A stretch of 64,000 nt of DNA from Hoylesella nanceiensis DSM 19126 = JCM 15639. GTDB lineage: Bacteria; Bacteroidota; Bacteroidia; Bacteroidales; Bacteroidaceae. Positions 4,923 through 22,520 of this stretch are shown here, piece after piece. How positions within the stretch are numbered: the stretch's first letter is position 1; each line of letters starts with the position of its first letter. Location: the NCBI RefSeq assembly GCF_000379965.1, contig NZ_KB904328.1:519976-583975 (forward strand), read 5' to 3'. The notes under the pieces are model-generated. The model worked only from the letters and a program-made list of their open reading frames with translations. It had not been told where the DNA came from and made no database searches. The position numbers were made by a program, and so were the translations under genes.

Positions 4923-4999
4923 GCATAGGTTGATACGTCAAACATTGCTCAATTCCAGTTCCTTTTATCGTTTCTAATTTTACTCTCGTTAACAGCAAC

Positions 5000-5015
5000 G
5001 AGGGTGCGCACCCTC
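5000..5015. promoter_or_regulatory. 16-bp perfect palindrome, candidate operator
   Basis: GAGGGTGCGCACCCTC is a perfect palindrome 28 bases before the excisionase-like gene. It is much more GC-rich than its surroundings. A dimeric regulator site controlling the replication/excision genes is plausible. Confidence 0.45.
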
Positions 5016-5042
5016 TATCGTTTTACCTAACAAATAAAAAAT

Positions 5043-5336
5043 ATGGAAAAGACCATAGAGGAACGAGTTTATGAACTCGAACAACTTCTCTTTACAAACA
5101 AAAATGTGCTTAGCTTTGATGAAGCAAGCAAGTTTCTTAACCTCTCAAAGAGTTATCTCTACAAGCTCACATCGGGCAATCTGATTCCTCATTATAAGCC
5201 ACAAGGTAAGATGCTTTATTTTGAGAAAGCAGAACTCGAAGCATGGCTGCGTCAGAATCCTATCAAGACTTCTGCGCAAATAGCCCAAGAAGCACAGAGA
5301 TATATTATGGGTAGCAAACCTTTAATGCAGAAGTAA
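5043..5336 (+). CDS. Excisionase-like helix-turn-helix protein
   Basis: This 97-residue protein has a MerR-like winged helix of the HTH_17/excisionase type: residues 22-65 contain the typical run LSFDEASKFLNLSKSYLYK, then an aromatic wing (HYKPQGKMLYFEK) and the LEAWL segment. Proteins of this family bend DNA at attachment sites or regulate element genes. It lies 4 bases before the ATPase gene, so the two are probably co-transcribed. It could act as the directionality factor for the integrase at the other end of the element, or as a transcriptional regulator. Confidence 0.8.
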   Translation: MEKTIEERVYELEQLLFTNKNVLSFDEASKFLNLSKSYLYKLTSGNLIPHYKPQGKMLYFEKAELEAWLRQNPIKTSAQIAQEAQRYIMGSKPLMQK

Positions 5337-5340
5337 GGCT

Positions 5341-6531
5341 ATGGAAAACGAGAACTTTATTCGTGTTGGCACAACCTTGTATAAGATTGTGAACCAACCT
5401 CGCATCAGTGGCGGTTTTGTAAAGAAGCGTATAGTATGGAATAATGAAACGCTACGCCAGGACTATGGCAAGGACTTCATTGCCACCGTCCCAAAGTACG
5501 ATGGTTTCTGCACTGTTCCTAATCATGTCAACTACCAACCAGTGGTTGATAAGTTCCTAAATCTCTATGAGCCGATAGGACACCAACCAAAAGAAGGAGA
5601 GTTTCCGCACGTTGAATCCCTGATAAGACACATCTTCGGGGAACAATACGAGCTGGGCATGGATTACTTGCAATTGCTCTATCTCCAACCCGTGCAGAAA
5701 CTCCCCATTCTCTTGATGGTATCAGAAGAACGCAATACAGGTAAGAGTACGTTCCTTAACTTTCTCAAAGCTGTTTTCCAAAACAATGTAACGTTCAATA
5801 CCAACGAGGATTTTCGCAGTCAGTTTAACGCAGACTGGGCAGGTAAACTGCTTATTGTGGTGGATGAAGTATTGCTTAACCGTAGAGAAGATAGTGAAAG
5901 ATTGAAAAACCTTAGCACAACACTTTCCTATAAGGTGGAAGCCAAGGGCAAAGACCGAGATGAAATCTCCTTCTTTGCCAAGTTCGTGCTGTGTTCCAAT
6001 AACGAGTTGCTCCCTGTCATTATAGACATAGGAGAAACCCGATATTGGGTAAGGAAGATAAATCGTCTGGAGGGTGACGATACAGAGTTTCTTCAGAAAT
6101 TGAAAGCAGAGATACCTGCCTTTCTTTATTTTCTTCAGCATCGCACGCTGTCTACCCAAAAGGAAAGCCGTATGTGGTTTGCACCCAAGCTGACTTTTAC
6201 ACCAGCCTTGCAACGCATTATCCGTAATAACAGAAACAAGCTGGAACTAGAAATGTCAGAGTTGTGTCTTGACATCATGGAAACAAACAATGTCGAGGAA
6301 GTCTCTTTCTGTATCAATGATATGATGCCTCTTTTAAGTAACACACAATGTAGGTATGACAAGGGGCAGATAAGGAGAGTTGTACAGGATATCTGGAAGC
6401 TCACACCTGTGTCCAATACGCTGACCTACACTACGTATCAACTTAGTTACAACACCCTGCAATATTACTCTCCTATTCGAAGGACAGGAAGGTTTTATAC
6501 AATCACCAAGGAGCAACTCAAGAGTTTATAA
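5341..6531 (+). CDS. SF3-type helicase/primase-like ATPase (DUF5906/VirE-associated type)
   Basis: This 396-residue P-loop ATPase has a Walker A of phage type (EERNTGKSTF, near residues 130-139) and a Walker B LLIVVDE near residues 169-175. The arrangement resembles the D5/SF3 helicases used for replication of phages and mobile elements. A C-terminal segment after residue 290 may be a winged domain. It sits between the excisionase-like gene and the Toprim primase, so it probably helps replicate the excised circular form. The primase-helicase pairing is common in Bacteroidota mobilizable elements. Family-level assignment is good; the exact role is inferred. Confidence 0.75.
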   Translation: MENENFIRVGTTLYKIVNQPRISGGFVKKRIVWNNETLRQDYGKDFIATVPKYDGFCTVPNHVNYQPVVDKFLNLYEPIGHQPKEGEFPHVESLIRHIFGEQYELGMDYLQLLYLQPVQKLPILLMVSEERNTGKSTFLNFLKAVFQNNVTFNTNEDFRSQFNADWAGKLLIVVDEVLLNRREDSERLKNLSTTLSYKVEAKGKDRDEISFFAKFVLCSNNELLPVIIDIGETRYWVRKINRLEGDDTEFLQKLKAEIPAFLYFLQHRTLSTQKESRMWFAPKLTFTPALQRIIRNNRNKLELEMSELCLDIMETNNVEEVSFCINDMMPLLSNTQCRYDKGQIRRVVQDIWKLTPVSNTLTYTTYQLSYNTLQYYSPIRRTGRFYTITKEQLKSL

Positions 6532-6798
6532 AAACATTATACCCATTATTTTGATGAAATGATGAATAGATTATATAAAGCTTTCAGTACAAGTCGTTTA
6601 CGTTCTCATCTTTTATTCATCGTGGATATTCTGCTGATGAAAAAAGAAAAGGATGATATTCTTCTTTTCGTCAGCAATTCTATTTTGAAGAATAGTATGA
6701 TGAGGGCATGATGAGTTCTCAACTATCTGATAACCATATAGATAAAATCAAATTCATCAAATCATCAAATTTTTCATCACTTTAACTTCCATATAATT

Positions 6799-7710
6799 AT
6801 GAATATTGACCAAATAAAAAAGATAAAGTTGCAGGAATTTCTTGCAACAATAGACTGCAAACCCGTAAAACAGTATGGTGTGAACCTCATGTACCTATCA
6901 CCACTTAGAACGGAGAAGCACGCATCGTTTAAGGTAAATACCGAACTTAATCTATGGTACGATTTCGGTATTGGCAGAGGTGGTAACATCATTGACCTTG
7001 CAGAATTGCTCTACAACTCTTCGGATGTGTCGTATCTCATTCGTCAGATAGAGCGTAATGCACCAAGCGGTGTATCGGTAAGTCTACCTAAAGCTAAGCC
7101 GAATACACCGCAGAACTCCTTTGAAAATCTTCAGGTACTTTCCATAGCCCATCCTGCGCTTATCAAATATCTTGGGGAAAGATGTATAGACATTGAAATA
7201 GCAAGAACTGTATGTAAGGAACTGCACTTTGATACAAGGGGCAAACATTACTTTGGTATTGGCTTTCCAAATATTGCAGGTGGCTACGAAATACGTAACC
7301 CGTTTTTCAAAGGAGGTATCACGCCAAAAGACATCAGTCTATTTCATAATGAGGAATCAAAGCAATCGTGTTTTGTCTTTGAGGGGTTCATAGACTTTCT
7401 TTCATTTATGATGCTCCAAAGAAAAGAGAATGACGGACTAAAACGACAAGATTATTTGGTACTCAACTCTGTCTCAAATATCCAGAAGGCATTAGAACCA
7501 TTATCACATTATGAGAATGTTCAATGTTTTTTGGACAATGATGAAGCAGGAAGAAATGCCTATCTGCGATTATCGAAGGAATTTGGGAATTTAGTTACAG
7601 ATGCTTCAACTTTATACAGTGGTTTCAAGGACTTAAACGAGTATCTTTGTGCTGAATCCAAGCATTCTGAGAAAACAGAAAATAAGAAAATCAGAGGGAT
7701 TAATCTATGA
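6799..7710 (+). CDS. Toprim-domain primase
   Basis: The protein has 303 residues. The N-terminal 90 residues resemble the DnaG zinc-finger fold (SPLRTEKHASFKVN, then WYDFGIGRGGNIIDL) but lack the zinc ligands. A Toprim domain follows, with the conserved glutamate in VFEGFIDFLSF (near residue 195) and the DxDxAG motif as FLDNDEAGRNAY (near residue 247). Such proteins prime DNA synthesis on mobile elements. A decayed copy of the same gene survives at 23228-23424, showing that a related element once sat next door. Confidence 0.8.
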   Translation: MNIDQIKKIKLQEFLATIDCKPVKQYGVNLMYLSPLRTEKHASFKVNTELNLWYDFGIGRGGNIIDLAELLYNSSDVSYLIRQIERNAPSGVSVSLPKAKPNTPQNSFENLQVLSIAHPALIKYLGERCIDIEIARTVCKELHFDTRGKHYFGIGFPNIAGGYEIRNPFFKGGITPKDISLFHNEESKQSCFVFEGFIDFLSFMMLQRKENDGLKRQDYLVLNSVSNIQKALEPLSHYENVQCFLDNDEAGRNAYLRLSKEFGNLVTDASTLYSGFKDLNEYLCAESKHSEKTENKKIRGINL

Positions 7711-7745
7711 TTGAAGGATTTGCTTTGCATAATCTATTTTTCGGG

Positions 7746-7787
7746 GGAGCAAGTTTATGTTTTGGGCATACCAAAACCACTTGCTCC
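7746..7787. promoter_or_regulatory. Candidate oriT inverted repeat
   Basis: GGAGCAAGT (7746-7754) is inverted at 7779-7787, with a second nested repeat TTTTGG/CCAAAA (7760-7765, 7771-7776). The structure lies in the short gap just before mobC and mobA, the usual place for oriT. The nick site cannot be assigned by eye. Confidence 0.5.
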
Positions 7788-7859
7788 ACCTCCTGACAGT
7801 CGTTGCAGAGGATTATCCCGATGGTCTCCATCAAATCAAATAAAATAAAAGAAACAAGT

Positions 7860-8213
7860 ATGATAAAAACAGAATATAAAAAAGGTGGTCGCCCAACCAA
7901 GGGCGCAGCCGAAAAGAAGAAATACCGTATCACGGTAAAACTGAATACGCAGGATTATTATACGCTCAAAGGCAAAGCCAAGAGCGCAGGAATATCCATG
8001 AGTGAGTTTGTAAGAAAACTTCTATATAATGGAAATATAATTGAACGCCTTACGGTTGAGCAGGCAGATTTCATTCGCAAGCTGTGTGGAATGGCAAACA
8101 ACCTCAACCAGTTAGCACATCGTGCCAATGCGGAAGGGTTCCATACCGTTACTCCTTTTCACAAAATCATTATTGGCAAGATTGACGAAATTCTAAATCT
8201 AATACGAAGATGA
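7860..8213 (+). CDS. mobC: Mobilization accessory protein MobC-like
   Basis: This is a basic protein of 117 residues with a lysine-rich N-terminus and a ribbon-helix-helix-like segment (YRITVKLNTQDYYTLKGKAK) followed by the SAGISMSEFVRKLLYNG helix. It matches the MobC/BfmC family that helps the relaxase open DNA at oriT. The start at 7860 is preferred over 7803 because the upstream extension runs into the oriT side and lacks family character. Its end overlaps the mobA start by four bases, showing translational coupling. Confidence 0.8.
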   Translation: MIKTEYKKGGRPTKGAAEKKKYRITVKLNTQDYYTLKGKAKSAGISMSEFVRKLLYNGNIIERLTVEQADFIRKLCGMANNLNQLAHRANAEGFHTVTPFHKIIIGKIDEILNLIRR

Positions 8214-9130
8214 TTGCAAAGATAGTGAAAGGTTCGGACTTCAGGGGTGTCATCAATTACATCCTTGACCCGAAGAAAGGGACGGAGCTAATAGACAGTA
8301 CTGGAGTAAGAACAGACAGTATTAGCCATATTGTCCAAAGTTTCATCGACCAAGCAGAACTAAATCCACGAGTGGGTAAGGTTGTTGGCCATATCTCCCT
8401 GAGTTTCTCCGCACAGGACACGCCCAAACTCAGCAATGAATGGATGGCGCAGATAGCTCGTGAATATATGGATAAGATGGGGATAAAAGACACGCAATAT
8501 ATCATCGGTCGCCACTTCGACAAGGAACATCCGCACATTCATATTGCTTTCAATCGGATAGATAACAACGGCAAGACCATCTCTGACCGTAACGACAGAT
8601 TCAGAAGTGAGAAGATTTGCAAAGAACTGACTGCCAAATACAGTTTATACTTCGCTACAGGTAAAGAGCAAGTCAAGGAATATCGTTTGAAAGAACCCGA
8701 CAAGACCAAGAATGAAATCTATCAGTCATTGAAAGCAGAAATAGCCCGGTGCAGAGATTGGAAAAACTTGCTTGTTCACTTAAAAAAGCAAGATATTGAT
8801 GTCCGCTTCAAGTACAAAAGCAACTCACAGGAGGTGCAGGGAATTATCTTTGAAAAGAATGGCTATCATTTCAATGGCTCTAAGGTGGACAGAAATTTCA
8901 GTTATTCCAAGATAGACTTTGCCTTGCAACAGAATAACAGGGAACACGAACAGCAGACACAAGGAATGATAAATCTCATATCCAATGTTGCAAGTGTTAC
9001 GAGCGAAATTACCAACGACCTCATCGAAGGAGGATTGGGATTGTTCCAAACTCATGGTACTGTTCCTGCGGAAGTTTACAACACTCTTGACAAAAAGAAG
9101 AAAAAGAAAAAACGTAAAATACATTTATAA
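8210..9130 (+). CDS. mobA: Relaxase MobA/VirD2 family
   Basis: This 306-residue nickase starts conjugal transfer by cleaving oriT and staying bound to the 5' end. The N-terminus MIAKIVKGSDFRGVINYIL is typical of Bacteroidota MOB relaxases, and the conserved metal-binding histidine motif is present as DKEHPHIHIAFNRID (residues 104-118). The candidate catalytic tyrosine is Y17. The C-terminus is lysine-rich. It overlaps mobC and is followed two bases later by the membrane-anchored accessory gene, so the three form one operon. Confidence 0.9.
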   Translation: MIAKIVKGSDFRGVINYILDPKKGTELIDSTGVRTDSISHIVQSFIDQAELNPRVGKVVGHISLSFSAQDTPKLSNEWMAQIAREYMDKMGIKDTQYIIGRHFDKEHPHIHIAFNRIDNNGKTISDRNDRFRSEKICKELTAKYSLYFATGKEQVKEYRLKEPDKTKNEIYQSLKAEIARCRDWKNLLVHLKKQDIDVRFKYKSNSQEVQGIIFEKNGYHFNGSKVDRNFSYSKIDFALQQNNREHEQQTQGMINLISNVASVTSEITNDLIEGGLGLFQTHGTVPAEVYNTLDKKKKKKKRKIHL

Positions 9131-9132
9131 CT

Positions 9133-9774
9133 ATGGCTGACAATAATACATTTGTCCTCTTTGAGGAAATTAAAAATAAGCTGGAGACAATTTACAGGGA
9201 GCTAAAGGAGTTGAAAGAAAAGGAGAATGGTTCTGTTTCCCTCCCTGTTCAATCTACACTAGCACAAAGTGATGAGCAACAGGAATTGCTCAATCAGTAT
9301 GAACAGCGAACAAAAGAAGTGATTAACAAGTATATTGGTGTGCAAGTGCGCATCAAGGACGAGGAGGCTAAATCCATGGACAAATTGGTGTCAAGCGTCT
9401 TGACCATGTTGCACGAGTGGCAGGAGAATAAAGAGCATCCAATACCGCAGGAACATATTCACAGGCACAGCTTTGATATCAAATCGTCAAGAGTCTTTAC
9501 TACTGTGGTGGCTGTGTCTATCATCTGTTTTATTTCTTTGGTCGGTAACTACTTCTTGTGGCAAAGCAAACAGCAAAACAAAGATGATGCCTTGAAATTT
9601 CGTATCATTAGAGTATGGAGAGGTTGTAGCCCTAAGGAAATCCTATGGCTTAACGATGTATTTGACATTCATCGTAATGAAAAGATTATCAAACTAATCA
9701 AGGAAAAAGCAGATGATTACGACATGGAATTGAAGCAAAAGGCGGATAGCCTGATGCAAAGAAAATTGAAGTAA
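9133..9774 (+). CDS. Membrane-anchored protein of the mob operon
   Basis: This 213-residue protein has a predicted coiled-coil N-terminal half (residues 8-90, rich in E, K, Q and L), one transmembrane helix near residues 122-144, and a charged C-terminal domain. It is encoded directly after the relaxase. Similar genes of unknown function often follow mobA in Bacteroidota elements. It may tether the relaxosome to the membrane, but that is only inference from position and topology. Confidence 0.65.
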   Translation: MADNNTFVLFEEIKNKLETIYRELKELKEKENGSVSLPVQSTLAQSDEQQELLNQYEQRTKEVINKYIGVQVRIKDEEAKSMDKLVSSVLTMLHEWQENKEHPIPQEHIHRHSFDIKSSRVFTTVVAVSIICFISLVGNYFLWQSKQQNKDDALKFRIIRVWRGCSPKEILWLNDVFDIHRNEKIIKLIKEKADDYDMELKQKADSLMQRKLK

Positions 9775-9787
9775 CTCTATACGGAAT

Positions 9788-9822
9788 AAGCCCAACCAAA
9801 CGTGGGGTGCTTGGTTGGGCTT
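9788..9822. terminator. Strong hairpin after the mob operon
   Basis: The 12-base arm AAGCCCAACCAA (9788-9799) is perfectly inverted at 9811-9822. It separates the mob operon from the region around the restriction locus. No long T-run follows, so termination may be weak or bidirectional. Confidence 0.55.
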
Positions 9823-9834
9823 GTGCGCTGCATC

Positions 9835-10160
9835 TTAGTCTATGATTTCCCAAAAGCCACCATTATCTGGTCCAACACGGCGGAGGTACTTATTACGCAT
9901 ATATTCGATGTTACGCATGATGGAGGTGAAACTAATTCCTACAGCAGCAAGTTCCATCTTGGTAATATAATGATTTTCAGCTATTAATTGTAAGATGGAA
10001 ATACGATTTAATGTTAATTTATCACCATTTTCTAATGCCTTGGCTACCCACTTTCACCACTATAACCTTTCGTTTATCAGTTATCTTGGATTGCTTATCA
10101 GTCACCCTATCAGATACCTTTGATTGGTTATCAGTAACTTTTTCAGATACTCTTAAGTAG
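9835..10160 (-). pseudogene. Remnant of a RecG-like/AAA_4 (COG2865) protein, C-terminal winged helix
   Basis: The minus strand encodes about 70 residues ending at 9835 (from KWVAKALENGDKLTL to VGPDNGGFWEIID). They look like the C-terminal winged helix of COG2865 proteins, whose ends often read RxGxxxGGYW. There is no start codon. Upstream the frame is lost and continues in another frame as a TDNQSK/VTDKQSK-type repetitive linker, also typical of that family. This is a truncated, frameshifted leftover beside the restriction locus. Confidence 0.5.
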
Positions 10161-10205
10161 TAAATTCTCCCTTCTTTACTTATTGCATATCAGTGGAGAG
10201 ATATA

Positions 10206-11462
10206 ATGGCTAATTCTTCCGATACGCCCCATTATGAGAATGTGCCGTTTGAGGTGCCAGAAAACTGGGAGTGGACTACATTAGGAGAAATTGGAACATG
10301 GCAATCTGGGGCGACTCCCAGTCGTTTGAGAAAGGATTATTATGGTGGCAACATCCCATGGCTAAAGACGGGTGACTTAAACGATGGATTGATTACGGAT
10401 ATACCTGAATTTATAACTCAAAAGGCATTAGATGAGACTTCTGTTAAGTTAAATCCCATAGGTAGTATTCTTATAGCTATGTATGGAGCTACGATAGGAA
10501 AGATTGGTATACTTACATTCCCTGCAACAACAAATCAGGCTTGCTGTGCCTGTAGTGACTATAAGATAGAGCAAATGTATTTATTCTATTTCTTACTTGC
10601 AAATAAAAAGGTATTTATAGCTATGGGAGGTGGTGGCGCACAACCTAATATATCAAAGGAGAAAATTGCAGTCACCTTTATGCCTCTCCCACCACTTACC
10701 GAACAGCAACGTATCGTTGTAGAAATTGAACGCTGGTTCAAACTCATTGATGCCATTGACCAGAGCAAAGCGGACTTACAAACCACTATCACGCAGACGA
10801 AAAGTAAAATCCTCGACCTTGCCATCCATGGCAAACTCGTACCACAAGACCCGAATGATGAGCCTGCATCGGAATTGCTCAAGCGCATCAATCCCAAGGC
10901 TGAAATTACTTGTGATAACGAGCATAGTAGGAAGTTACCCTATAATTGGTGTTTATGTAATCTTGGAGATGTTTGTATGCTTGAGAATGGCTTTGCATTC
11001 AGTAGCGACCAATATAAAGCAAAAGGAATACCATTGATTAGAATATCAAACATCAAAGACAATGAAATTTCACTATCTTCTTGTGTCTTTATAAATGAAG
11101 GATATGAAGAAAAATATATCGTTCATAGTGGGGATTTACTGATAGCAATGTCTGGTGCAACAACTGGGAAAATGGGCATATATAATCAAAAATATGTTGC
11201 TTATTTAAATCAGCGCGTTGGTAATATTAAGATTGTGGATTCTAATTTGCTTTTTGACAAGTATAGAAATTATTTCCTCTTTTCTCAAAAAAATAAAATT
11301 TTAGAATTAGCATATGGGGGAGCGCAGCCTAATATAAGCGGCAAAGTCATTAACTCTTTATTTGTTCCTCTTCCTCCCATCGCCGAACAAAAGCGCATTG
11401 TGCAAAAGATAGAGGTGCTATTTTCAATTATTGATACTGTTGAACAAGCTTTGCAAGCATAG
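10206..11462 (+). CDS. hsdS: Type I restriction specificity subunit, reservoir copy (hsdS1)
   Basis: This 418-residue HsdS-like protein has two target recognition domains (about residues 15-160 and 245-385) separated by the conserved helical region with the motifs PPLTEQQRIVVEIERWF and ILDLAIHGKLVPQDPND. It lacks the roughly 40-residue conserved N-terminus of the facing gene at 12819-14210. No hsdM or hsdR lies on this strand. It probably acts as a donor store of recognition domains for the expressed copy rather than as the expressed gene, although an ATG with a weak purine-rich leader exists. The repeats at 10219-10235 and 10876-10925 mark where it would recombine. Confidence 0.8.
   Translation: MANSSDTPHYENVPFEVPENWEWTTLGEIGTWQSGATPSRLRKDYYGGNIPWLKTGDLNDGLITDIPEFITQKALDETSVKLNPIGSILIAMYGATIGKIGILTFPATTNQACCACSDYKIEQMYLFYFLLANKKVFIAMGGGGAQPNISKEKIAVTFMPLPPLTEQQRIVVEIERWFKLIDAIDQSKADLQTTITQTKSKILDLAIHGKLVPQDPNDEPASELLKRINPKAEITCDNEHSRKLPYNWCLCNLGDVCMLENGFAFSSDQYKAKGIPLIRISNIKDNEISLSSCVFINEGYEEKYIVHSGDLLIAMSGATTGKMGIYNQKYVAYLNQRVGNIKIVDSNLLFDKYRNYFLFSQKNKILELAYGGAQPNISGKVINSLFVPLPPIAEQKRIVQKIEVLFSIIDTVEQALQA
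10219..10235. repeat. 17-bp inverted repeat at the TRD1 border (copy in hsdS1)
   Basis: CCGATACGCCCCATTAT is present in inverse orientation at 14019-14035 in hsdS2, immediately before the first recognition domain in both genes. Confidence 0.75.
10876..10925. repeat. 50-bp inverted repeat in the central conserved region (copy in hsdS1)
   Basis: Fifty bases are identical to the inverse complement of 13299-13348 in hsdS2. Wider similarity (about 230 bp, imperfect) extends toward the first recognition domain. Identity stops exactly at the border of the second recognition domain. Confidence 0.85.
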
Positions 11463-11489
11463 CCTTATTGGGCTACGCTTGCAAAACAA

Positions 11490-12293
11490 TTACCAGTTTA
11501 CAACTTTATCCACTATCTTCTGTTGCTCATTCGTTGTCCTGCGTAGATAGATGCGAGTGGTCTCTATGCTTTCATGCCCCATAAGGTCGGCTAATAGCGC
11601 AAGGTCATTGAAACGGTCGAGGAAATTCTTTGCAAAGCGGTGGCGGAAAGAATGTGGATAAACCACATCACGATTGATGCCATACTTTTCAGCAAAATGT
11701 TTAAGCTGTTGGGCAATACCACGTGTTGTAATTCGATTGCCAAAGCGATTGAGGAATATATACCCCGAACTTAATCCCCTTTCTTTAATCCACTTATTTG
11801 CTTCTGTCCGTAAATTCTTAGGAATATACAAACGCCTTATTTTGCCACCTTTACTATAAAGATCGAGATACCCTACTTGTACATGCTCTGCTTTAATTTG
11901 TAACAATTCACTGACACGTGCGCCCGTTGCTGCCATAAACCATATCGTGAAGTACCACTCATCAAAGCCATCAGCCTTTAGTTTGGTCTTCAAGAACTTG
12001 TAGTCGGCATCACTTATCACATTTTCCAAGAAGTTCTTTTGCTGTACCTTAACAAACTTCACTTTTAGTTTCTCCTGCTTTGAGTATTCCAAAAATTTAT
12101 TGATTGCCTGCAAACGTAAATTAACAGTCTGAGGCTTAAAATTCTCAACAAGGAATCCTTTGTATGCTAAAAGGTTCTTTTTATTCACTTCCTTGTAATG
12201 TTCAAAGAAGTAGTTCACTGTCCACACATACGATGTGATGGTGTTTGGTGCCAAGTTGGTCTTGGCAAGATGTTTCTGAAATGTTGTTACCAT
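11490..12293 (-). CDS. Tyrosine recombinase, probable hsdS invertase
   Basis: This 267-residue XerC/D-like recombinase has a short SAM-like N-terminal domain and the catalytic residues in ATGARVSELLQI (Arg I), HSFRHRFAKNFL (His-X-X-Arg), LMGHESIETT (His) and the terminal tyrosine in RIYLRR. Lysines in SKGGKIRR probably complete the set. The start MVTTFQKHLAK at 12293 is preferred because an upstream extension runs through the hsdS repeat. The gene lies between hsdS1 and the silent hsdS half-gene. This is the arrangement known for inverting type I loci of Bacteroidota, so it most likely inverts the hsdS segments. Confidence 0.85.
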   Translation of the reverse strand: MVTTFQKHLAKTNLAPNTITSYVWTVNYFFEHYKEVNKKNLLAYKGFLVENFKPQTVNLRLQAINKFLEYSKQEKLKVKFVKVQQKNFLENVISDADYKFLKTKLKADGFDEWYFTIWFMAATGARVSELLQIKAEHVQVGYLDLYSKGGKIRRLYIPKNLRTEANKWIKERGLSSGYIFLNRFGNRITTRGIAQQLKHFAEKYGINRDVVYPHSFRHRFAKNFLDRFNDLALLADLMGHESIETTRIYLRRTTNEQQKIVDKVVNW

Positions 12294-12340
12294 ATTACAT
12301 TGATTTATAATGAATAAAGTAACAATATAATAAAGCATAT

Positions 12341-12376
12341 CGAGCATTATCCGAAGTTGCCTAAGGGATGGAGCAT
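12341..12376. repeat. 36-bp inverted repeat at the TRD2 border (silent cassette copy)
   Basis: Thirty-six bases starting CGAGCATTATCCGAAG are exactly inverted at 13270-13305 in hsdS2. Identity ends sharply on both sides. Confidence 0.9.
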
Positions 12377-12824
12377 ATACAGGCTTGGAGACGTTGTAAA
12401 ATATGAACAGCCAACAGCATATATTGTACAATCAACTGCATATAGTGATGCTTATCCTATTCCTGTTCTAACGGCAGGGAAATTATTTATTATTGGGCAT
12501 ACGAAAGAGACGGAAGGAATCTATAACAGACTACCTTGTATTATCTTCGACGATTTTACAACTGACTCTCGATTGGTGGATTTCCCTTTTAAGGTTAAAT
12601 CGTCTGCAATGAAAATATTACAAGTGCATTATGGCGTCGAAGTGGAATATGTATCATTGTTTATGAGCATAACAAGACTTGTCGGTGACACGCATAAACG
12701 ATATTGGATTTCAGAATATTCAAAGTTGGAAATACCTATTCCTCCACAAGAAGAACAGAAGCGGATTATAGGGAAAGTGCGTCTACTCTTTGAGGTTTTA
12801 GATGTAATTGAGGAGAGTTTATAA
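12344..12824 (+). pseudogene. Silent hsdS half-gene (second recognition domain cassette)
   Basis: The frame runs from the 36-bp repeat (EHYPKLPKGWSIYRLGD) through a recognition domain unlike that of hsdS2 to the conserved end PPQEEQKRIIGKVRLLFEVLDVIEESL. It has no start codon of its own. Inversion between the 36-bp repeats would fuse it in frame to the first half of hsdS2 and give a new DNA specificity. It is best read as a storage cassette, not a decayed gene. Confidence 0.85.
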
Positions 12825-12840
12825 GTTCTCCTCAATTACA
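12803..12840. terminator. 14-bp hairpin between convergent hsdS ends
   Basis: TGTAATTGAGGAGA (12803-12816) is inverted at 12827-12840 with a 10-base loop. It holds the last codons of both the silent cassette and hsdS2. It may end transcription from either side and forms the symmetric centre of the invertible segment. Confidence 0.5.
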
Positions 12841-14210
12841 GTAAGCAATGCATACGCAGCATTTATTGCATCAATAATTCTTTCTTGTTCTGCATAAGGC
12901 GGTATCGGCACAGGGATCGCCTTAAACAGTTTTTTGTTCAAGTGTGGAATAGCAGAGCCTACTTTATTCTCTCTCAAAGGCTTTCTATGCAAATTGATGA
13001 TGTCTAAGACAAACTTTTCATTCATATTTTCATTGATATTTAGCTGCTTGAAAGTACTACCTTGATAGCCCTCAGTTGAAGTTTGGAACACTTCTCCCGA
13101 GTTCTCTCCATCAACTAATATCATATATGTGTTAGCTGGAACATATCTGCCAGCTTTTATAACTTTCCCATCAGAAAACCCTCTTAAAAACTTTGCGTCT
13201 AAGCTGGTCAGCAACCTATCTTCTTGCCTTTCTCCATCAAACAAACCACACACTTCCTGCATAGAAGTAATGCTCCATCCCTTAGGCAACTTCGGATAAT
13301 GCTCGTTATCACAAGTAATTTCAGCCTTGGGATTGATGCGCTTGAGCAGTTCCGATGCTGGCTCGTCATTAGTGTCTTGTGGCACGAGCTTGCCGTGAAT
13401 GGCAAGGTCAAGTATCTTGCTCTTTGTCTGCTTGATGGCTATTTGTAAGTCCGACTTTCCTTGCTCAACCGTATCAATTAAAGTAAACCATCGTTCAATT
13501 TCAGCTACAATGCGTTGTTGTTCTGCAAAAGGGGGGAGGGGAATGTAGAAATTCTTTAGAATATCGAAAGGTGGAATATTCTTGATGGCAGTCCCCTTAC
13601 TCTCTTTTGCTGCTTCACTTTTAAGCATGAAATCAAAGTAGAGTAAATAAAAATCAGAAATGGACTTATCAAAAAGTCTAATGAGCATAAGAGCTTGGTT
13701 AATAATACCCTCCCTCAGATTTAGTGGTAATACATAGGTTTCTCCTATTGTCCCTGCACAACTGACAATTATGTCTTCTGATTGAACAGTAAAACACTTG
13801 AGTTCTTCATACTTGTCTTTGTCAATAAAATAGTGCCCTAACGTAGCATCTTTGCTTATGGCATTTTTTTGTTCATAAACTTTATAAGCATCTGGTGAGT
13901 CCGGTACGAACATGGATTTCGTGAGACTGCTACCAAATGGCCCCTTCTTATAAAAAGCCAAGTCGTCTAATTTGCACCACTCCCACCCCTCGGGTACTTC
14001 AAACGGCACGTCCTGCGGATAATGGGGCGTATCGGTAGTTTTAGCAGACTTTCGACTACGTTTTATTTTCCCTTCTGAGATTAAGCGTTCTTTTTCTGTA
14101 CGGATGCGCTCAAGCAAAACAGATGCAGGCTCATCGTTTGGGTCTTGAGGTACAAGTTTGCCATGAATAGCAAGGTCTAATATCTTTTGTCTTAACTTCT
14201 TTGTGTCCAT
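12819..14210 (-). CDS. hsdS: Type I restriction specificity subunit, expressed copy (hsdS2)
   Basis: This is a full-length HsdS of 463 residues. A conserved N-terminal helix region (residues 1-60, ILDLAIHGKLVPQDPND) is followed by TRD1 (about 62-222), a central conserved region (PPFAEQQRIVAEIERWF, then the same ILDLAIHGK motif), TRD2 (about 305-440) and the conserved end VIEENL. HsdS gives the methylase and nuclease their bipartite DNA target. It is the last gene of the hsdR-hsdM-nuclease-hsdS operon and 11 bases after the DUF1016-type gene. Inverted repeats at both recognition-domain borders allow exchange with hsdS1 and the silent cassette, so its specificity is expected to vary within a population. 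Confidence 0.92.
   Translation of the reverse strand: MDTKKLRQKILDLAIHGKLVPQDPNDEPASVLLERIRTEKERLISEGKIKRSRKSAKTTDTPHYPQDVPFEVPEGWEWCKLDDLAFYKKGPFGSSLTKSMFVPDSPDAYKVYEQKNAISKDATLGHYFIDKDKYEELKCFTVQSEDIIVSCAGTIGETYVLPLNLREGIINQALMLIRLFDKSISDFYLLYFDFMLKSEAAKESKGTAIKNIPPFDILKNFYIPLPPFAEQQRIVAEIERWFTLIDTVEQGKSDLQIAIKQTKSKILDLAIHGKLVPQDTNDEPASELLKRINPKAEITCDNEHYPKLPKGWSITSMQEVCGLFDGERQEDRLLTSLDAKFLRGFSDGKVIKAGRYVPANTYMILVDGENSGEVFQTSTEGYQGSTFKQLNINENMNEKFVLDIINLHRKPLRENKVGSAIPHLNKKLFKAIPVPIPPYAEQERIIDAINAAYALLTVIEENL
13270..13305. repeat. 36-bp inverted repeat at the TRD2 border (hsdS2 copy)
   Basis: This is the exact inverse complement of 12341-12376. It lies at the start of the second recognition domain and encodes EHYPKLPKGWS in both copies. 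Confidence 0.9.
13299..13348. repeat. 50-bp inverted repeat in the central region (hsdS2 copy)
   Basis: This is the exact inverse complement of 10876-10925 in hsdS1. It overlaps the 36-bp repeat by seven bases, so the two exchange sites share one border. Confidence 0.85.
14019..14035. repeat. 17-bp inverted repeat at the TRD1 border (hsdS2 copy)
   Basis: This is the exact inverse complement of 10219-10235, placed just before the first recognition domain. Confidence 0.75.
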
Positions 14211-14221
14211 TATCTACCAAA

Positions 14222-15382
14222 TTAATCATTTGTATTGTTTTGCTCTTCCAGAAAAAGGTTGCAATATTCATTGAGTTGTTCTTGCATACGCTCTTGCGGA
14301 ATAAGAATACGTTTGTATTCTGTTATCAAAGTTGGGCTCATACTGCGACTCATAGCGTATTCTACCACCATTTTATCAACATCAGAACATAATAGAATAC
14401 CAATAGAAGGGTTTTCGTTGCTTCGCTTTACATCACGATCAAGGGCTTCGAGATAAAATTCCAACTGCCCGAGATCACGAGGATGAAACTTTGTCTTTTT
14501 CAGTTCTACCGCAACAAGTGCTTGTAACCCACGATGGAAGAACAATAAGTCGGCTTTGAAAGTTGATGCACCCACATTGAGGTTATACTCTTGTTCCATA
14601 AAGATAAAATCTTTACCCAACTCAAGAATAAATTGCTTCATGTGTTCTATCAATCCTTTCTTGAGCTTTGCTTCACTATGTTTTTGAGGTAACCCAAGGA
14701 AATCAACAAACAAAGTGTCCTTAAATACAACAGGAGCATTAGGATAATTCTGTAATAAGCCTTTCGACATATTCTTTTTATCGCCTAACAATGTTGTGTA
14801 GGTCTGGTTGGTAATGCTACGCTGAAGCTCTCTTTTTACCAAATGTTCTTTATGAGCATACAAAATATAGAATAGTCGTTCTTCGCTGCTTTTACAACGA
14901 CATAATATCTCTATATGGTTTGTTAATGTGGTCAGTGTAAGCAACTTTGGGAATTGTCCAATTCTTGGCTGGATAACTTGCATAGGAAGAGTGTCAATTC
15001 CTGGATAATCTTGTATCAAAGGCTTATCATTAGTTTGTGCAATTTTTGGCTGCACAAATTCTTTAGATAGGTATTGTGATGCTATAGATAAGAAGTTTTC
15101 GGAAGAATACTCTTCGTAGAACTGCACCATATTATATACACTTCTTCTGCTATATCCTTTCAACTTTGGTTGTTTGGTACGGATATATTCAGAAAGTTGA
15201 GTAACAACTTTGCTACCCCATTCTTCTGTTTTTAACTTATTGGAAACATAACCACCCACATTCCAAGCCATAAGCAGTGTTTCTTCATTCACTGCCCTTG
15301 AAGCACGACCCTGATGCTGCAAAATGATGTTGATTACCTCATCAAACTGCTGCTCTTGACTCAATATCACATTACTATCCAT
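14222..15382 (-). CDS. DUF1016/YhcG-type PD-(D/E)XK nuclease
   Basis: The protein has 386 residues. The N-terminal domain (about residues 10-125, with LLMAWNVGGYVSNKLKTEEWGSK split by turns, then LKGYSRRSVYNMVQFY) is the DUF1016 DNA-binding type. The C-terminal domain (about 215-345) has a PD-(D/E)XK nuclease signature with FKADLLFF (Asp) and AVELKKTKF (Glu-X-Lys). It is inserted between hsdM and hsdS2 in the restriction operon, five bases from hsdM. This family often travels with type I systems in Bacteroidota. Its exact function is unsettled; a role in DNA repair or as a second nuclease is possible. Confidence 0.85.
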   Translation of the reverse strand: MDSNVILSQEQQFDEVINIILQHQGRASRAVNEETLLMAWNVGGYVSNKLKTEEWGSKVVTQLSEYIRTKQPKLKGYSRRSVYNMVQFYEEYSSENFLSIASQYLSKEFVQPKIAQTNDKPLIQDYPGIDTLPMQVIQPRIGQFPKLLTLTTLTNHIEILCRCKSSEERLFYILYAHKEHLVKRELQRSITNQTYTTLLGDKKNMSKGLLQNYPNAPVVFKDTLFVDFLGLPQKHSEAKLKKGLIEHMKQFILELGKDFIFMEQEYNLNVGASTFKADLLFFHRGLQALVAVELKKTKFHPRDLGQLEFYLEALDRDVKRSNENPSIGILLCSDVDKMVVEYAMSRSMSPTLITEYKRILIPQERMQEQLNEYCNLFLEEQNNTND

Positions 15383-15387
15383 TCCGT

Positions 15388-16812
<1,425 letters not shown>

Positions 16813-19524
16813 TTAAGCTATTTTTCTGTAAATGATAAATTGTGATAATGAAGACAAAGCTTCATTTGCTATATTTTTTCCACCAAAGGCACGGATAAGT
16901 TGTGCCGCCTGTGTCTTGTCATTGTCTTTAATCTCTGTAATTGTACAATAACCATTCGATGCAATGTAGCTAAATACTTGTTGCATCACTCCAATCTGCT
17001 CTTCTGTAAGAGGTCGTTGATTTTGTCCACACCACAGATTAAAACGTTGGTTGGCAGATGGATACAAGCTTTCGAGCCTTCCTATCTGGTGAAAAGCATA
17101 ACGCACTAACTGGATAATGTTTGTAAGAGCTTCTTTTTCCTCTTTTGTAGAACTATGTTTTACCATTGGGGGATTGATTATGGCATAAGAGTTCCAAAGT
17201 AATGAAGTATTAAACTTACTATTTGCAAATTTCAATTTATTCTCCAAATCTTTTAGTATCGCATAAGTAAGAGGCTCGCCTTGATTATTGTAGATGATGC
17301 GCAATGCTTCTATTTCATCCTTATGCTCCTCACAATAGGCTTCAAAAGCCGAAGTGGTCGCCTGCGCTTCTTCCTGTGAAAAGCCTTTTGAAATAAGCAT
17401 ATCTTCTCCGGGCATCAAGGTCTCAATAAAACCTGCATTAAGTATCAATAAAAACTCACGTGCATCTGGCTCATTCGCAATGTTGTGCACCAAAGCCTTG
17501 CGGATTGTATTTGACTCATTCACATTGACGTATTCTGGTAAGGATCCTTGCTCAAGCGCATCAAAGATATTGGATGCAATATCCATCATACTTATATGTG
17601 CAAGACTGATAAACTTCTCACGGTCCTTTTCTTCACATTTATGACTGATACGAGATAAGCGACTTGCTAATAAACGCAGATAATCATCACTTACGTTACC
17701 ATGCGTTATTTTCTCCAAAAGTTCTTTCAAGGAGATTAGTTTGGTGGTTGCACTGTCTGAGGGAGAAGTAATAGACTTTTCATGCTCTGTAACACCTACG
17801 GCATCTACTAAAAAGAAACAATCCTTACTGTAAGCATTGGGCGTTACATTTCGTAGTTGCTCGTCTCCTATGGTACGCACACCTCGTCCTTTCATCTGAA
17901 TATATAACGGTTCTGATGCCACATCACGCATAAACATTACCACTTCAAGGGGTTTAATGTCTGTACCTGTTGCCACCAATGTGCAAGTTACGGCGATGCG
18001 GAAATCCTTATCGTTGCGGAACTGTCGTATCAGCTCATTGCTATCACCTGCCGAATAAGTGATTTTTTGTACGAAACAATTATCATTGTGTCCAAACACT
18101 TCTTTTGCTATTTGCACGATATTAGTTGCATGATTTTCATTGAGTGCAAAGATAAGTGTCTTGGGCAGATAGTCCATATTAGGTTCTCGCTGCGGGTCGG
18201 TAAACAACTCGGTATATACGGCATCACGGTAGGTCTCCAATATCAACTTAATCTGTGCAGGATTGATGATGCTGCGGTTAAGTTCCTCACGAGTATAATT
18301 TTTTGTTTCTTGGTTGTTAATAGTCTGAACTTGCCCCGTATAGCATGTTTCTCTCTTTACTTTATCACCTTCGAGAATAGCACCGCCGTTCTCTGTTGCC
18401 TGCGTTTTGATACGATAAACACGACAATCAACATTTACGCCATCAACGATAGACTTCTCCAACGTATAGTTTACGATGATATTGCCATTGAAGAAAGCCT
18501 TCGTCTCAGGAATAGGTGTTGCTGTTAATCCTATCAACTTTGCTTTTGAGAAATAATTGAGGACTTTCTGCCAATTACCATAAATAGAACGGTGGCACTC
18601 ATCAATAATTATCATATCAAAGAAATCTGAAAGAAGATTAGGATTCTCTGGGAGCATTATTTCCTTATCTTCAATTTCTTCATCGTCCTCATCATTATCG
18701 GTAATTTCGTCACCCTTTAACAATGAGAAAAGTCGTTGTATAGTGGATATTACCACATTGCTATCTGTTAGTACACTTGAAGACTTCAAGCGATTAACCG
18801 TAAAAATAGTATTGAATGGATCGCCATTCTCTGTCAAACGGAATGTACCAAATTCAGTTTCAGCCTGCTTACCCAAATTATTCCTATCCACCAAAAACAA
18901 GATGCGCTTCGTTGGCGTGAAAGCTAACATGCGATAGGCTGCCAAACAAGCAGTATAAGTCTTCCCGGCACCCGTTGCTAAAACCATCAAAGCACGATTT
19001 TCACCATTACGAAACGATTGTTCTAATTGAGTGATTGCCTCATATTGGCACGCACGCAATCCTTTGGGGCTCAATGTGGGCAAGCCAACATAATCATCTT
19101 CCAAGCTTAATAACTTTTTAACCTCTTTGGGAGTATGGATTTTCTTACAATACTCAAATTCAGAATTACTCTTTCGAGTATCATAAAACATCAAGTCTCT
19201 ACTATTAGCAACATAGGCAAGGGGTAAAGGTATATTAGGAAACCATGCTTGGCACCACTTAGGACAACTACGTGTATATAAGCGAGCTTGTTCTTGCACA
19301 ATATCAGAATTTATATCTGTTTCAATGCGCTTAGCTTCCAATACCCCAACTGCTTTTCCATTGAGAAACAATAAATAATCAGCTTCCCTATTGCCAACCA
19401 TCAATCCTTCCTTGATAGCCACAGCCGTCATATTTGGAGCATACTTATCTCTATCAACGACTTTCCAGCCTGCTTCTTCAAACATTCTGTCTATGATAAC
19501 TCGCGCTTTTTCTTCTGGTTTCAT
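16813..19524 (-). CDS. hsdR: Type I restriction endonuclease subunit HsdR
   Basis: This 903-residue motor nuclease has an N-terminal nuclease domain with the signature EADYLLFL and VGVLEAKR (residues 43-63). The superfamily 2 helicase core follows, with Walker A ATGAGKTYT near residue 184, DECHRS near 306 and GLTATPIP after it, then a helical C-terminus. The complex cuts unmodified DNA after translocation. It is the first gene of the hsdR-hsdM-nuclease-hsdS2 operon. Nothing suggests truncation. Confidence 0.95.
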   Translation of the reverse strand: MKPEEKARVIIDRMFEEAGWKVVDRDKYAPNMTAVAIKEGLMVGNREADYLLFLNGKAVGVLEAKRIETDINSDIVQEQARLYTRSCPKWCQAWFPNIPLPLAYVANSRDLMFYDTRKSNSEFEYCKKIHTPKEVKKLLSLEDDYVGLPTLSPKGLRACQYEAITQLEQSFRNGENRALMVLATGAGKTYTACLAAYRMLAFTPTKRILFLVDRNNLGKQAETEFGTFRLTENGDPFNTIFTVNRLKSSSVLTDSNVVISTIQRLFSLLKGDEITDNDEDDEEIEDKEIMLPENPNLLSDFFDMIIIDECHRSIYGNWQKVLNYFSKAKLIGLTATPIPETKAFFNGNIIVNYTLEKSIVDGVNVDCRVYRIKTQATENGGAILEGDKVKRETCYTGQVQTINNQETKNYTREELNRSIINPAQIKLILETYRDAVYTELFTDPQREPNMDYLPKTLIFALNENHATNIVQIAKEVFGHNDNCFVQKITYSAGDSNELIRQFRNDKDFRIAVTCTLVATGTDIKPLEVVMFMRDVASEPLYIQMKGRGVRTIGDEQLRNVTPNAYSKDCFFLVDAVGVTEHEKSITSPSDSATTKLISLKELLEKITHGNVSDDYLRLLASRLSRISHKCEEKDREKFISLAHISMMDIASNIFDALEQGSLPEYVNVNESNTIRKALVHNIANEPDAREFLLILNAGFIETLMPGEDMLISKGFSQEEAQATTSAFEAYCEEHKDEIEALRIIYNNQGEPLTYAILKDLENKLKFANSKFNTSLLWNSYAIINPPMVKHSSTKEEKEALTNIIQLVRYAFHQIGRLESLYPSANQRFNLWCGQNQRPLTEEQIGVMQQVFSYIASNGYCTITEIKDNDKTQAAQLIRAFGGKNIANEALSSLSQFIIYRKIA

Positions 19525-19609
19525 ATCTTCTATGATTCTTATAAGTGCATATTATCGGAAGTTAAAGAAATGATTTTCTCAAATAAATCAATCATCTAAA
19601 TAACATATT

Positions 19610-20659
19610 TCAAGATAAAGGCAAGACTTCTTCGTCTCCAATCCGAATTAAATCACCAAGCACTATATACATTATTATTACACATTGATTAGCTTCTTGT
19701 TCCGTCACTTTATTATGTATACCCTTGTTAGAGAGCTCATTTACTTTCTCTATTCTTTTCACCAAATCTTCAACACTTTGGTTTAGCAATTCTGTATGAG
19801 TATGCTTACCTGCTTTTTCAAATAACACAAATGATATTCTATTTAGGTATTTGTCCTCTGTTAAAACTCTCCGTTTGCCATCGGAACAGGTAACAGGGTC
19901 TGCTTGGGGAGGGCAAATCGCATTTGCATAAAGCATCAATACTTTTCTTATATCAAGTAATGCCTCCTCATAATCAATAGGCGTCCCCTTTATCATATGA
20001 GAATCTATCGCTTTAATATAATCATTAAAATTAGTGTCTATGTTTTCCAACTTATTTACGACCCATTCTTTATTATTTTCAAAGTATCTTGATAAGGTAT
20101 TACCCTGCATTAATTGCATTTCCGTTTCTATGAGATAGTCTATTACTCTGTCTCTAATCCTTTTTACTATATTCTGAAATTGCTCATACTGAAGATTAAG
20201 GAACATTCGATTCGCAGCATTATTCTGCTCCGTATAATATACATCCAAAGTATGCATACCTTTGGTATTAACCAAGGATTTTCTGTGGTTTTCGATTGTC
20301 TGGATCCTATCTTCTATATCATAAATACTATATGGGAAGACTTGGTCGCTTTTCTTTATATCCCCTGTTGGATTTAGTTCGTTAATACTCCTTTCTTCTA
20401 ACCATTTCATTAAATACTTTTTCCCATATAATTCATAGTCTTCTTTAACGAACTTAGCCTTCATTGTGTCATCAATTCTTCGAAATGTCCCTTGTGGATT
20501 ACCCTGCAATTCTTGTAATATCCACCATAGATTTATAAAATCTTTGCGGTGGGTAGCTATGCGTTGAGCTTGTTTAAGCAAATTGTTAGTTAGATAATTC
20601 TGCGTATTCGCATTTGATAATGCACATTGAACCAGTTCTAATAAATATCCTTCAGTCAT
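19610..20659 (-). CDS. Unrecognised protein, possible AbiTii-like N-terminus (349 aa)
   Basis: No firm family assignment is possible. The first 55 residues (LLELVQCALSNANT, then LLKQAQRIATHRKDFINLWWILQELQG) resemble the AbiTii domain of abortive-infection proteins, in which a helix pair ends in W-x-x-x-E-L-x-G. The C-terminus (LSNKGIHNKVTEQEANQCV, then YIVLGDLIRI) resembles helical ends of AbiTii/HEPN-like defence proteins. There is no signal peptide and no membrane segment. It sits 14 bases after a small repressor gene and just before the type I operon on the same strand, so a regulatory or back-up suicide role for the restriction system is plausible but unproved. Confidence 0.6.
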   Translation of the reverse strand: MTEGYLLELVQCALSNANTQNYLTNNLLKQAQRIATHRKDFINLWWILQELQGNPQGTFRRIDDTMKAKFVKEDYELYGKKYLMKWLEERSINELNPTGDIKKSDQVFPYSIYDIEDRIQTIENHRKSLVNTKGMHTLDVYYTEQNNAANRMFLNLQYEQFQNIVKRIRDRVIDYLIETEMQLMQGNTLSRYFENNKEWVVNKLENIDTNFNDYIKAIDSHMIKGTPIDYEEALLDIRKVLMLYANAICPPQADPVTCSDGKRRVLTEDKYLNRISFVLFEKAGKHTHTELLNQSVEDLVKRIEKVNELSNKGIHNKVTEQEANQCVIIMYIVLGDLIRIGDEEVLPLS

Positions 20660-20673
20660 AAGATTCCCTTATA

Positions 20674-20877
20674 TTATTCTGTCCACAACAAATCATCAAC
20701 CCTCACGCCCAATATCTTTGCCAACTGAATGAACATTTCAACATTTGGCTGGGCAACATTCGTTACCCACTTCGATATAACAGCAGGGTCTTTATCCAAA
20801 ATCTTTGCCAGTTGTTTATTGGTCATTCCTTTCTCGGCGAGAACCACCTTTAAACGGTTTATTTTCTTGCGCTCCAT
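20674..20877 (-). CDS. Small XRE-family repressor
   Basis: This 67-residue Cro/CI-type helix-turn-helix protein has its HTH at residues 17-38 (MTNKQLAKILDKDPAVISKW). The C-terminal MFIQLAKILGVRVDDLLW is typical of the family. It precedes the AbiTii-like gene and the type I operon on the same strand, so it probably controls their expression, as controller proteins do for other restriction systems. Confidence 0.85.
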   Translation of the reverse strand: MERKKINRLKVVLAEKGMTNKQLAKILDKDPAVISKWVTNVAQPNVEMFIQLAKILGVRVDDLLWTE

Positions 20878-20993
20878 ACTTATGTAACTTGATTACGCCA
20901 TAAAATTACTCATTATTTCTCAGAATATATCTCTTTTGAGTAAAAAGATGGTTGTTTCTAATCAAAAAAATGTTTTTCAATTCATTTTTCATC

Positions 20994-22217: not shown

Positions 22218-22298
22218 AGTTGATAGTTATGTACCTAAATGTGTATCAAACCGAGTAAAATCATTAACTTGTTTATTTTCAGATGTTTTCTTATTTTG

Positions 22299-22327
22299 CA
22301 AAGATACTAAAAAGTTCCGAACATCAA
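22299..22327 (-). promoter_or_regulatory. Promoter of the integrase gene
   Basis: On the minus strand TTG (22327-22325) is followed after 18 bases by TATCTTTG (22306-22299), about 80 bases before the integrase ATG. Confidence 0.6.
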
Positions 22328-22460
22328 AGTGTACAAAAAGTGTACTATCTAACAAAAAATAGGCAAAAAAGGGCAAAATAACTAAATATAAGAAAATTTC
22401 AAATAGCTGATTATCAATATAATATATTCTTTTGGTTTCTCTTGTTTTCACGACATTGTA

Positions 22461-22474
22461 CCGAGTCTGGGTAC
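22461..22474. repeat. attR
   Basis: CCGAGTCTGGGTAC matches the tRNA-Leu 3' end with one change (position 4). It marks the right end of the element. Confidence 0.8.
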
Positions 22475-22480
22475 AAAGTA

Positions 22481-22520
22481 AAAGGCTAAGTTTTGAATTA
22501 TCAAATACTTAGCCTTTTCT
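22481..22520. terminator. Terminator just outside attR
   Basis: AAAGGCTAAG (22481-22490) is inverted at 22508-22517 and followed by T residues. It sits where a terminator follows the tRNA at the left end and could be the original tRNA terminator, or that of the older neighbouring element. Confidence 0.6.

Follow-up and report, generated by a model that had tools for sequence, protein, structure and literature searches.

A predicted PsrA-like hsdS shuffling locus in Hoylesella nanceiensis and a possible overlap code for its two classes of recombination sites

How many target sequences can a single type I restriction-modification (R-M) locus recognize when the recognition domains of its specificity gene hsdS are bordered by inverted repeats? 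This question is raised by a stretch of 64,000 nucleotides from Hoylesella nanceiensis DSM 19126 = JCM 15639 (RefSeq assembly GCF_000379965.1, contig NZ_KB904328.1, positions 519,976 to 583,975), hereafter the window, whose own numbering is used throughout. The original prediction for this DNA described an invertible two-state switch of the second target recognition domain (TRD2) bounded by a 36-bp inverted repeat. We found that description partly supported, being right in kind and too small: the system carries three pairs of inverted repeats, with two TRD1 and three TRD2 alleles predicted to give six HsdS proteins instead of two states. It is highly probable that the locus is a recombinase-driven hsdS shuffling system with six specificities, of which the catalysis and the effect are predicted, because the repeats and genes, the preserved reading frame, one isolate with an inverted arrangement, the domains swapped among relatives and the concordance of the site overlaps all point to it.

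The three components of a type I system, hsdR, hsdM and hsdS, are all present at the locus according to Pfam and PADLOC matches, and its genes are the following.

12819..14210, minus strand: active hsdS (463 aa; TRD1a and TRD2a), located 3' of hsdR-hsdM-DUF1016; Pfam/PADLOC
10206..11462, plus strand: silent hsdS (418 aa; TRD1b and TRD2c), without the N-terminal region that precedes TRD1
12341..12824, plus strand: half hsdS (TRD2b), convergent with the active hsdS
11490..12293, minus strand: PsrA-like tyrosine recombinase (267 aa)
14222..15382, minus strand: DUF1016/YhcG PDDEXK nuclease-like gene within the hsd operon
15388..16809, minus strand: hsdM; Pfam/PADLOC
16813..19524, minus strand: hsdR; Pfam/PADLOC

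On the minus strand the order is hsdR, hsdM, the DUF1016/YhcG gene and the active hsdS, which is faced by the half hsdS; beyond the half gene lie the recombinase (minus strand), adjoining the 36-bp repeat as had been stated, and then the silent hsdS (plus strand). The two additional copies (10206-11462 and 12341-12824) carry differing TRDs in the opposite orientation, and we infer the labels active and silent from gene order and place in the operon. The silent two-domain gene, a 50-bp repeat and a 27-nt repeat at the TRD1 starts had been absent from the original prediction. The repeats and the proposed recombination sites within them are listed below.

12341..12376, plus strand: left arm of the 36-bp perfect inverted repeat, at the start of TRD2b in the half gene
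13270..13305, minus strand: right arm of the 36-bp repeat, at the start of TRD2a in the active hsdS
10876..10925, plus strand: arm of the 50-bp perfect inverted repeat, in the central conserved region of the silent hsdS and inside the 260-nt repeat 10680-10939
13299..13348, minus strand: other arm of the 50-bp repeat, in the central region of the active hsdS and inside the 260-nt repeat 13285-13544
10209..10235, plus strand: TRD1-start repeat of the silent hsdS (27 nt, 89% complementary)
14019..14045, minus strand: TRD1-start repeat of the active hsdS, partner of 10209-10235 (27 nt, 89%)
13289..13316, minus strand: Xer-like site at the active TRD2, with 11-bp arms around the 6-bp overlap CGAGCA at 13300-13305
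12341..12346, plus strand: overlap CGAGCA (6 bp) at the TRD2 site of the half gene, 47 bp 5' of the recombinase ATG
10919..10924, plus strand: overlap CGAGCA (6 bp) of the silent TRD2 site
10226..10231, plus strand: overlap GCCCCA (6 bp) of the silent TRD1 site
14023..14028, minus strand: overlap GCCCCA (6 bp) of the active TRD1 site

The arms of the 36-bp repeat are exact reverse complements, as originally described; a search that tolerated up to three mismatches returned no third place in the window and nothing in 100 shuffles. Identity had been said to stop exactly at both ends. This holds at the inner end, and past the repeat a global DNA alignment gives about 50% identity between the two second domains; at the outer end the alignment can be extended to 40 nt with a single mismatch (98%), so that the statement is true for perfect identity only. 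The 50-bp repeat sits in a 260-nt repeat of 80% identity, and altogether inverted repeats are present both before TRD1 and between TRD1 and TRD2. The Xer site dif has been described with two arms around six bases (PMC5357621), and the active TRD2 site of the window, ACTTGTGATAA-CGAGCA-TTATCCGAAGT, appears to fit the 28-bp, 11-6-11, partly dyadic layout of Xer/dif sites, its arms matching as a dyad at 9 of 11 positions when counted by eye. PsrA/CreX invertases are described as acting on a core like ATTATGGGAA that all three of their repeats contain; the possible counterpart in the window is ATTAT at four of the five sites, the silent TRD2 site having ATAGT. The three TRD2 sites have CGAGCA and the next T in common and differ on one side or the other, the left flank of the half-gene site being unrelated. 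As a separate observation, a GATA-N7-TTAT match at 12327-12341 overlaps the upstream region of the recombinase beside the half site, and this pattern is in excess within the window (11 matches, 3.8 expected); the recombinase may possibly regulate itself.

In the mechanism that we propose, each recognition domain begins with an Xer-like site embedded in the coding sequence, and a PsrA-like recombinase would invert the DNA between two such sites of opposite orientation. Recombination would take place within a class only, between the TRD1 sites or among the TRD2 sites of the active, silent and half genes, and in this way two TRD1 and three TRD2 alleles would pass through a single expressed hsdS to provide six methylation and cleavage specificities. 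The two classes of sites would share their arms and differ in the six-base overlap, and a need for overlap identity in strand exchange would keep them apart. When the five sites were inverted in silico by a script that allowed only TRD1 with TRD1 or TRD2 with TRD2, eight arrangements with six distinct active HsdS were obtained, all open and in frame (452-482 aa). One modelled product, an open HsdS of 462 aa, joins TRD1a to the domain of the half gene, which bears out the earlier statement that the reading frame is kept across the 36-bp repeat. The simple two-state TRD2 switch was rejected, because the 50-bp repeat and the silent two-domain hsdS make the system six-state.

Evidence on orientation comes from assemblies, two of this locus and one per orientation. 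A contig of Hallella seregens ATCC 51272 (locus L036) aligns to the flanks of the window in one orientation and to 10680-13544 in the other, and once the window is inverted between the 50-bp repeats the two differ at 43 of 14,363 columns (99.7% identity), against 1,652 of 14,683 columns when it is left uninverted. Each 260-nt arm offers 53 positions that distinguish the arms: the left arm of L036 is of its own type up to 10875 (46 positions, save two at 10826-10829) and of the other arm's type from 10926 (5 positions), and the right arm switches between 13298 and 13349 (5 and 48 positions). These switch points place the crossover within the 50 identical bases, which include the proposed site. 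The inversion seen between the window and its nearest relative therefore has its crossover in the 50-bp repeat instead of the 36-bp repeat, and the inverted segment measures 2.4 kb instead of 965 bp. Two details of the comparison deserve mention on their own: the L036 bases at 10826 and 10829 in the left 260-nt arm match the opposite arm, possibly as a gene-conversion patch, and 25 of the 43 differences cluster in 150 bp (8746-8895) of the relaxase gene, as if this part had recombined with another copy.

The exchange attributed to the 36-bp repeat is supported by homology only, through swapped half-gene and full-gene TRD2 positions in relatives. Among 243 domain sequences compared between loci, reciprocal swaps between a half gene and a full gene were found in four pairs of loci, L043/L048 (96.9 and 98.8%), L062/L064 (93.3 and 87.3%), L063/L066 (94.4 and 95.0%) and L083/L085 (96.4 and 92.5%), the full-gene domains of L063, L066, L083 and L085 being assigned to TRD2 by overlap and place instead of an upstream motif; L053/L054 showed a one-way match (96.9%). 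Because of the four reciprocal swaps, exchange between half and full gene is supported. The half-gene domain of the window itself has an 81% relative in the full gene of L024, which lies downstream of hsdM on the same strand; in L038 its relative (72%) sits in the half gene. Moreover, mixed orientation was observed, by our own count, in three of 16 pairs of different records (L026/L057, L051/L161 and L053/L054).

How could one recombinase keep first and second domains in their places? We compared the window with 80 other loci, and sites or half sites were found in 57 of the 81; half genes were sought only beside the recombinase, and the class-based counts that follow omit L036 as a near-twin of the window, keep other close relatives and are not independent. 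In Phocaeicola vulgatus ATCC 8482 (L042) and Segatella copri (L057), where two hsdS genes flank the recombinase, the site pattern gave no half-gene site. In 22 of 23 cases the TRD2 sites of a locus carry identical overlap bases at all six positions, and so do the TRD1 sites in 11 of 11; the half gene agrees with a TRD2 site in 20 of 21, the exception being L090, where the half gene matches the TRD1 bases of that locus. TRD1 and TRD2 bases coincide in none of 29 loci, and nine different TRD2 hexamers occur among the loci with two TRD2 sites. The hexamer of the half gene was also followed in 37 loci, after six of 43 with near-identical recombinases had been dropped: it recurs elsewhere in its own locus in 31 of 37 and is present in 19 of 37 when the locus nearest by recombinase similarity is examined instead; 10,000 shuffles gave a mean of 3.8 and a maximum of 13 against the 31 in the own locus. 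In a sign test, 13 loci favored the own locus and one the neighbor (two-sided p of about 0.002 by our arithmetic).

A profile by position was made from 29 of these 37 loci picked by hand, the eight left out being five of the six loci in which the half hexamer did not recur and three in which it did; 17 of the 29 had usable pairs, L047 (the sixth of the former) contributed no pair, and the pattern missed the second, mismatching TRD2 site of L045. All six positions agree in 27 of 27 within-locus pairs from the 17 loci, a result that describes clear cases and is not a test, the class-based counts and the recurrence of the half hexamer in 37 loci serving as tests. The excess of within-locus identity at the three varying overlap positions is +0.25, +0.62 and +0.38, the largest values of the profile at two of them; some right-hand positions are also in excess (largest +0.32), and at the ten adjacent left positions it is at most 0.08. 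Besides, close relatives change the hexamer at all TRD2 sites together: from CGGACA to CGGGCA between L051 and L161, whose TRD2 proteins are 100 and 98.8% identical, and from CGGACA to CGCGCA between L043 and L048. Among TRD pairs of at least 85% identity, 31 are of the same class and one is cross-class when half genes are counted as TRD2, a count that leaves out two half-half pairs, one pair with an unassigned member and four pairs from near-duplicate loci, and in which the class is partly assigned from the overlap.

Taken together, these comparisons incline us, by a narrow balance, to a general rule for a wide family of PsrA-type hsdS shufflons, in which one recombinase would serve two classes of sites and the overlap would act as an address holding TRD1 and TRD2 in register, a natural cassette exchange with non-cross-reacting sites; the overlap would drift between species and change at all sites of a locus together. 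Such joint change would mean that exchange between mismatched overlaps does not proceed, or that the mismatch is corrected in its course. This comparative overlap rule is the new part of the present work, the shuffling locus itself belonging to the known SpnIII/cod kind, and no description of class-specific overlaps in hsdS shufflons was met among the titles and abstract openings that the searches listed, a set outside which most of the subscription literature lay. The locus would let clonal cells differ in the DNA that they restrict or methylate, and in Prevotellaceae this bears on defence against phages, on the uptake of genes and possibly on their regulation. If true, the overlap code would explain how a two-domain specificity protein is reshuffled without a misplaced domain, would provide a rule by which active shufflons can be recognized from genome sequence alone and would give one enzyme pairs of sites that do not cross-react.

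Several findings weigh against these interpretations. The arrangement of L036 could be a mis-scaffolding at the repeat, the 965-bp flip itself was not seen in this species at assembly level, and 13 of the 16 record pairs are without inversion, some of their matches possibly falling outside hsdS genes. At the silent TRD2 site the right arm is degenerate (TAGTAGG in place of TTATCCG), and this site may invert via the longer repeat by another route; at the half-gene site it is the left arm that is degenerate. Pneumococcal long repeats, for their part, are reported to invert also without PsrA (PMC6620402), and the 50-bp/260-nt repeat may by analogy do so without the recombinase. As for the overlap, one of the two TRD2 sites of L045 breaks the concordance, and the half hexamer is not found elsewhere in its locus in six of 37 cases (L047, L071, L077, L097, L106 and L114), some of which look like false site calls. 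The cross-class pair, TRD1 with TRD2, is L069/L072 (86.9% identity), and class 1 is joined to class 2 or to a half gene in 11 of 102 pairs at 75% identity or more and in 32 of 241 at 70% or more. Domains have crossed classes, and mixing is rare among near-identical domains, not absent.

The repeats might be no more than the conserved coding sequence of homologous hsdS genes, rearranged by homologous recombination or gene conversion with the recombinase as a bystander. The length of the central repeat (260 nt, 80%) agrees with this, as do the L036 crossover in its 50 identical bases, where homologous recombination would prefer to act as well, the two L036 bases that a conversion patch would leave, and the pneumococcal long-repeat inversions, which go on without CreX and in recA mutants (PMC6620402). 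However, at the half site the six bases are still common although the left flank is unrelated, both in the 27 within-locus pairs from hand-picked loci and in the 20 of 21 class-based cases counted without that choice, and at the ten left positions the identity differs by at most 0.08 between within-locus and between-locus comparisons. We consider this explanation improbable, and conserved coding sequence as the sole cause was rejected on account of that unrelated flank. Even fainter is the prospect that the silent hsdS and the half gene are decaying remnants of a locus that is now locked: the degenerate right arm of the silent site and the single orientation of the 965-bp segment in assemblies of this species are what such decay would leave, but all six combinations translate, the recombinase is full length with conserved residues, and L036 presents another arrangement at 99.7% identity.

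A doubt that we take more seriously, while not sharing it, bears on the code and not on the shuffling, namely that the TRD1 and TRD2 overlaps differ by phylogenetic accident, their starts descending from different sequences. TRD1 overlaps are few, since the 11 loci that have two TRD1 sites show three kinds between them; each class may have an ancestry of its own, a His codon constrains the last two overlap bases, and over longer times domains have crossed classes. On the other hand, TRD2 overlaps change together at all sites between near-identical systems (L051/L161 and L043/L048), and TRD pairs of at least 85% identity stay in their class in 31 of 32 cases, half genes taken as TRD2 and the class partly assigned from the overlap itself.

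The recombinase to which we attribute the shuffling is 63% identical over 263 aa to a protein annotated as PsrA (WP_000651186.1) from a Streptococcus dysgalactiae plasmid and matches Phage_integrase with an E-value of 1.9e-25, and among NCBIfam models no recombinase match was above its cut-off, XerA/C/D models matching below theirs. Residues R126, H214, R217, H240 and Y249, which we take to be catalytic, are invariant in 11 aligned recombinase sequences, the window included. Carriers, with the genome of the window counted each time, amount to 15 of 150 genomes sampled from the genus at E ≤ 1e-40; at E ≤ 1e-100, the family sample gave 37 of 399 and the order sample 6 of 393. Judged by eye, the PsrA locus of the S. 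dysgalactiae plasmid likewise has sites of both kinds, TRD1 and TRD2; two different hexamers precede TTAT there, and each is common to its two copies.

The closest known systems are the pneumococcal SpnIII/Spn556II/cod loci with PsrA (CreX), which are likewise described with hsdR, hsdM, one expressed and two silent hsdS and a PsrA recombinase, and with three pairs of inverted repeats, eight arrangements and six HsdS alleles (PMC4948785, PMC7096588, PMC7394358); the eight arrangements were derived from inversions for Spn556II (PMC4948785) and the six HsdS proteins reported for the D39 system (PMC7394358). That the smallest repeat belongs to the half gene fits the described pneumococcal 553-bp hsdSB exchange. 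In the pneumococcal system, moreover, the 5 bp beside the core seem to be important at one of the long repeats but not at the other, as would be expected of an overlap that is specific to its class; it is we who infer the link between the two. The window differs in its Bacteroidota host, in the relaxase, primase and integrase genes alongside, in the extra DUF1016/YhcG gene, and in repeats of 36 bp, 50 bp (260 nt at 80%) and 27 nt (89%) where SpnIII/cod has 15, 298/333 and 85 bp. The locus is, then, a further case of the SpnIII/cod kind of inverting type I R-M system, with inversion seen at assembly level.

Within Bacteroidota, the Bacteroides fragilis shufflon BB (BF1839-1842) is also a type I hsdS shufflon with an adjoining tyrosine integrase gene, but has four repeat sets and eight combinations, and its printed 38-bp repeat is unlike the window sites by eye (PMC3090145). 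In Prevotella intermedia ATCC 25611, two genome sequences of the strain were reported to differ by a 2371-bp hsdS inversion, and several methylation motifs were described, although its hsdS is fragmented and the text of that report never uses the word recombinase (PMC5608340); phase-variable type I systems have been reported in P. gingivalis and P. intermedia isolates (PMC5690328). The sfx sites used by Rci in the R64 shufflon resemble ours in a highly variable left arm beside a conserved core and right arm, an asymmetry proposed to restrict Rci to inversions (PMC11852207). The R64 system differs in its 7-bp core, which is conserved among sites, and in its cargo. That cargo presumably consists of pilin tips.

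The R-M locus probably travels on a mobilizable element, because relaxase, MobC/NikA-like, Toprim primase-like and integrase genes lie alongside it; they are found in 3676-22217 together with DUF5906 and HTH_17 genes and a tRNA-Leu. In the search for direct repeats at element ends, the tRNA-Leu region and 19400-26000 had only matches of 11-12 bp in common, and the window as a whole contained no direct repeat as long as 20 bp. The exact 35-nt half-repeat pattern had no match in the viral_contigs collection; in the plasmids collection 77 records matched in part, without any of them reaching 80% coverage of the query, and the best of 95 records in the phages collection reached 64.6%. Within the operon, the DUF1016/YhcG gene between hsdM and hsdS had the candidate defence family PDC-S02 as its best PADLOC match (E 1.2e-112); it is kept in L022, L023 and L026 (69-91%) and weak in L025 (27%), with no match in L024 and L027. 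The region 5' of hsdR (19610-20877) holds an open reading frame (ORF) of 349 aa with a weak AbiTii match (E 5.9e-7) and another of 67 aa that resembles a helix-turn-helix regulator by eye.

Other relatives of the recombinase merit a brief record. Those in L099, L102, L104, L105 and L107 (71-73%) lie on contigs labelled Gallibacterium, Paenibacillus, Clostridia, Clostridium and Peptoniphilus, which reflects wide transfer or contamination. One region (G406:C6:20094-22786; L151 and L044) has two equal-scoring recombinase matches that lie 1.1 kb apart, are oppositely oriented and fall in an inverted duplication (about 1.67 kb, 96%). In L031 (2975-10346), a 57% identical recombinase lies near an ORF of 1320 aa that by eye looks like a helicase-methyltransferase fusion, whose NPPY motif is encoded by a 29-bp inverted repeat (5925-5953 / 9466-9494). 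A silent C-terminal part could be encoded by a 309-aa ORF that faces it, and the ORF between the two is transposase-like (both by eye); PsrA-like enzymes may shuffle single-chain R-M enzymes too.

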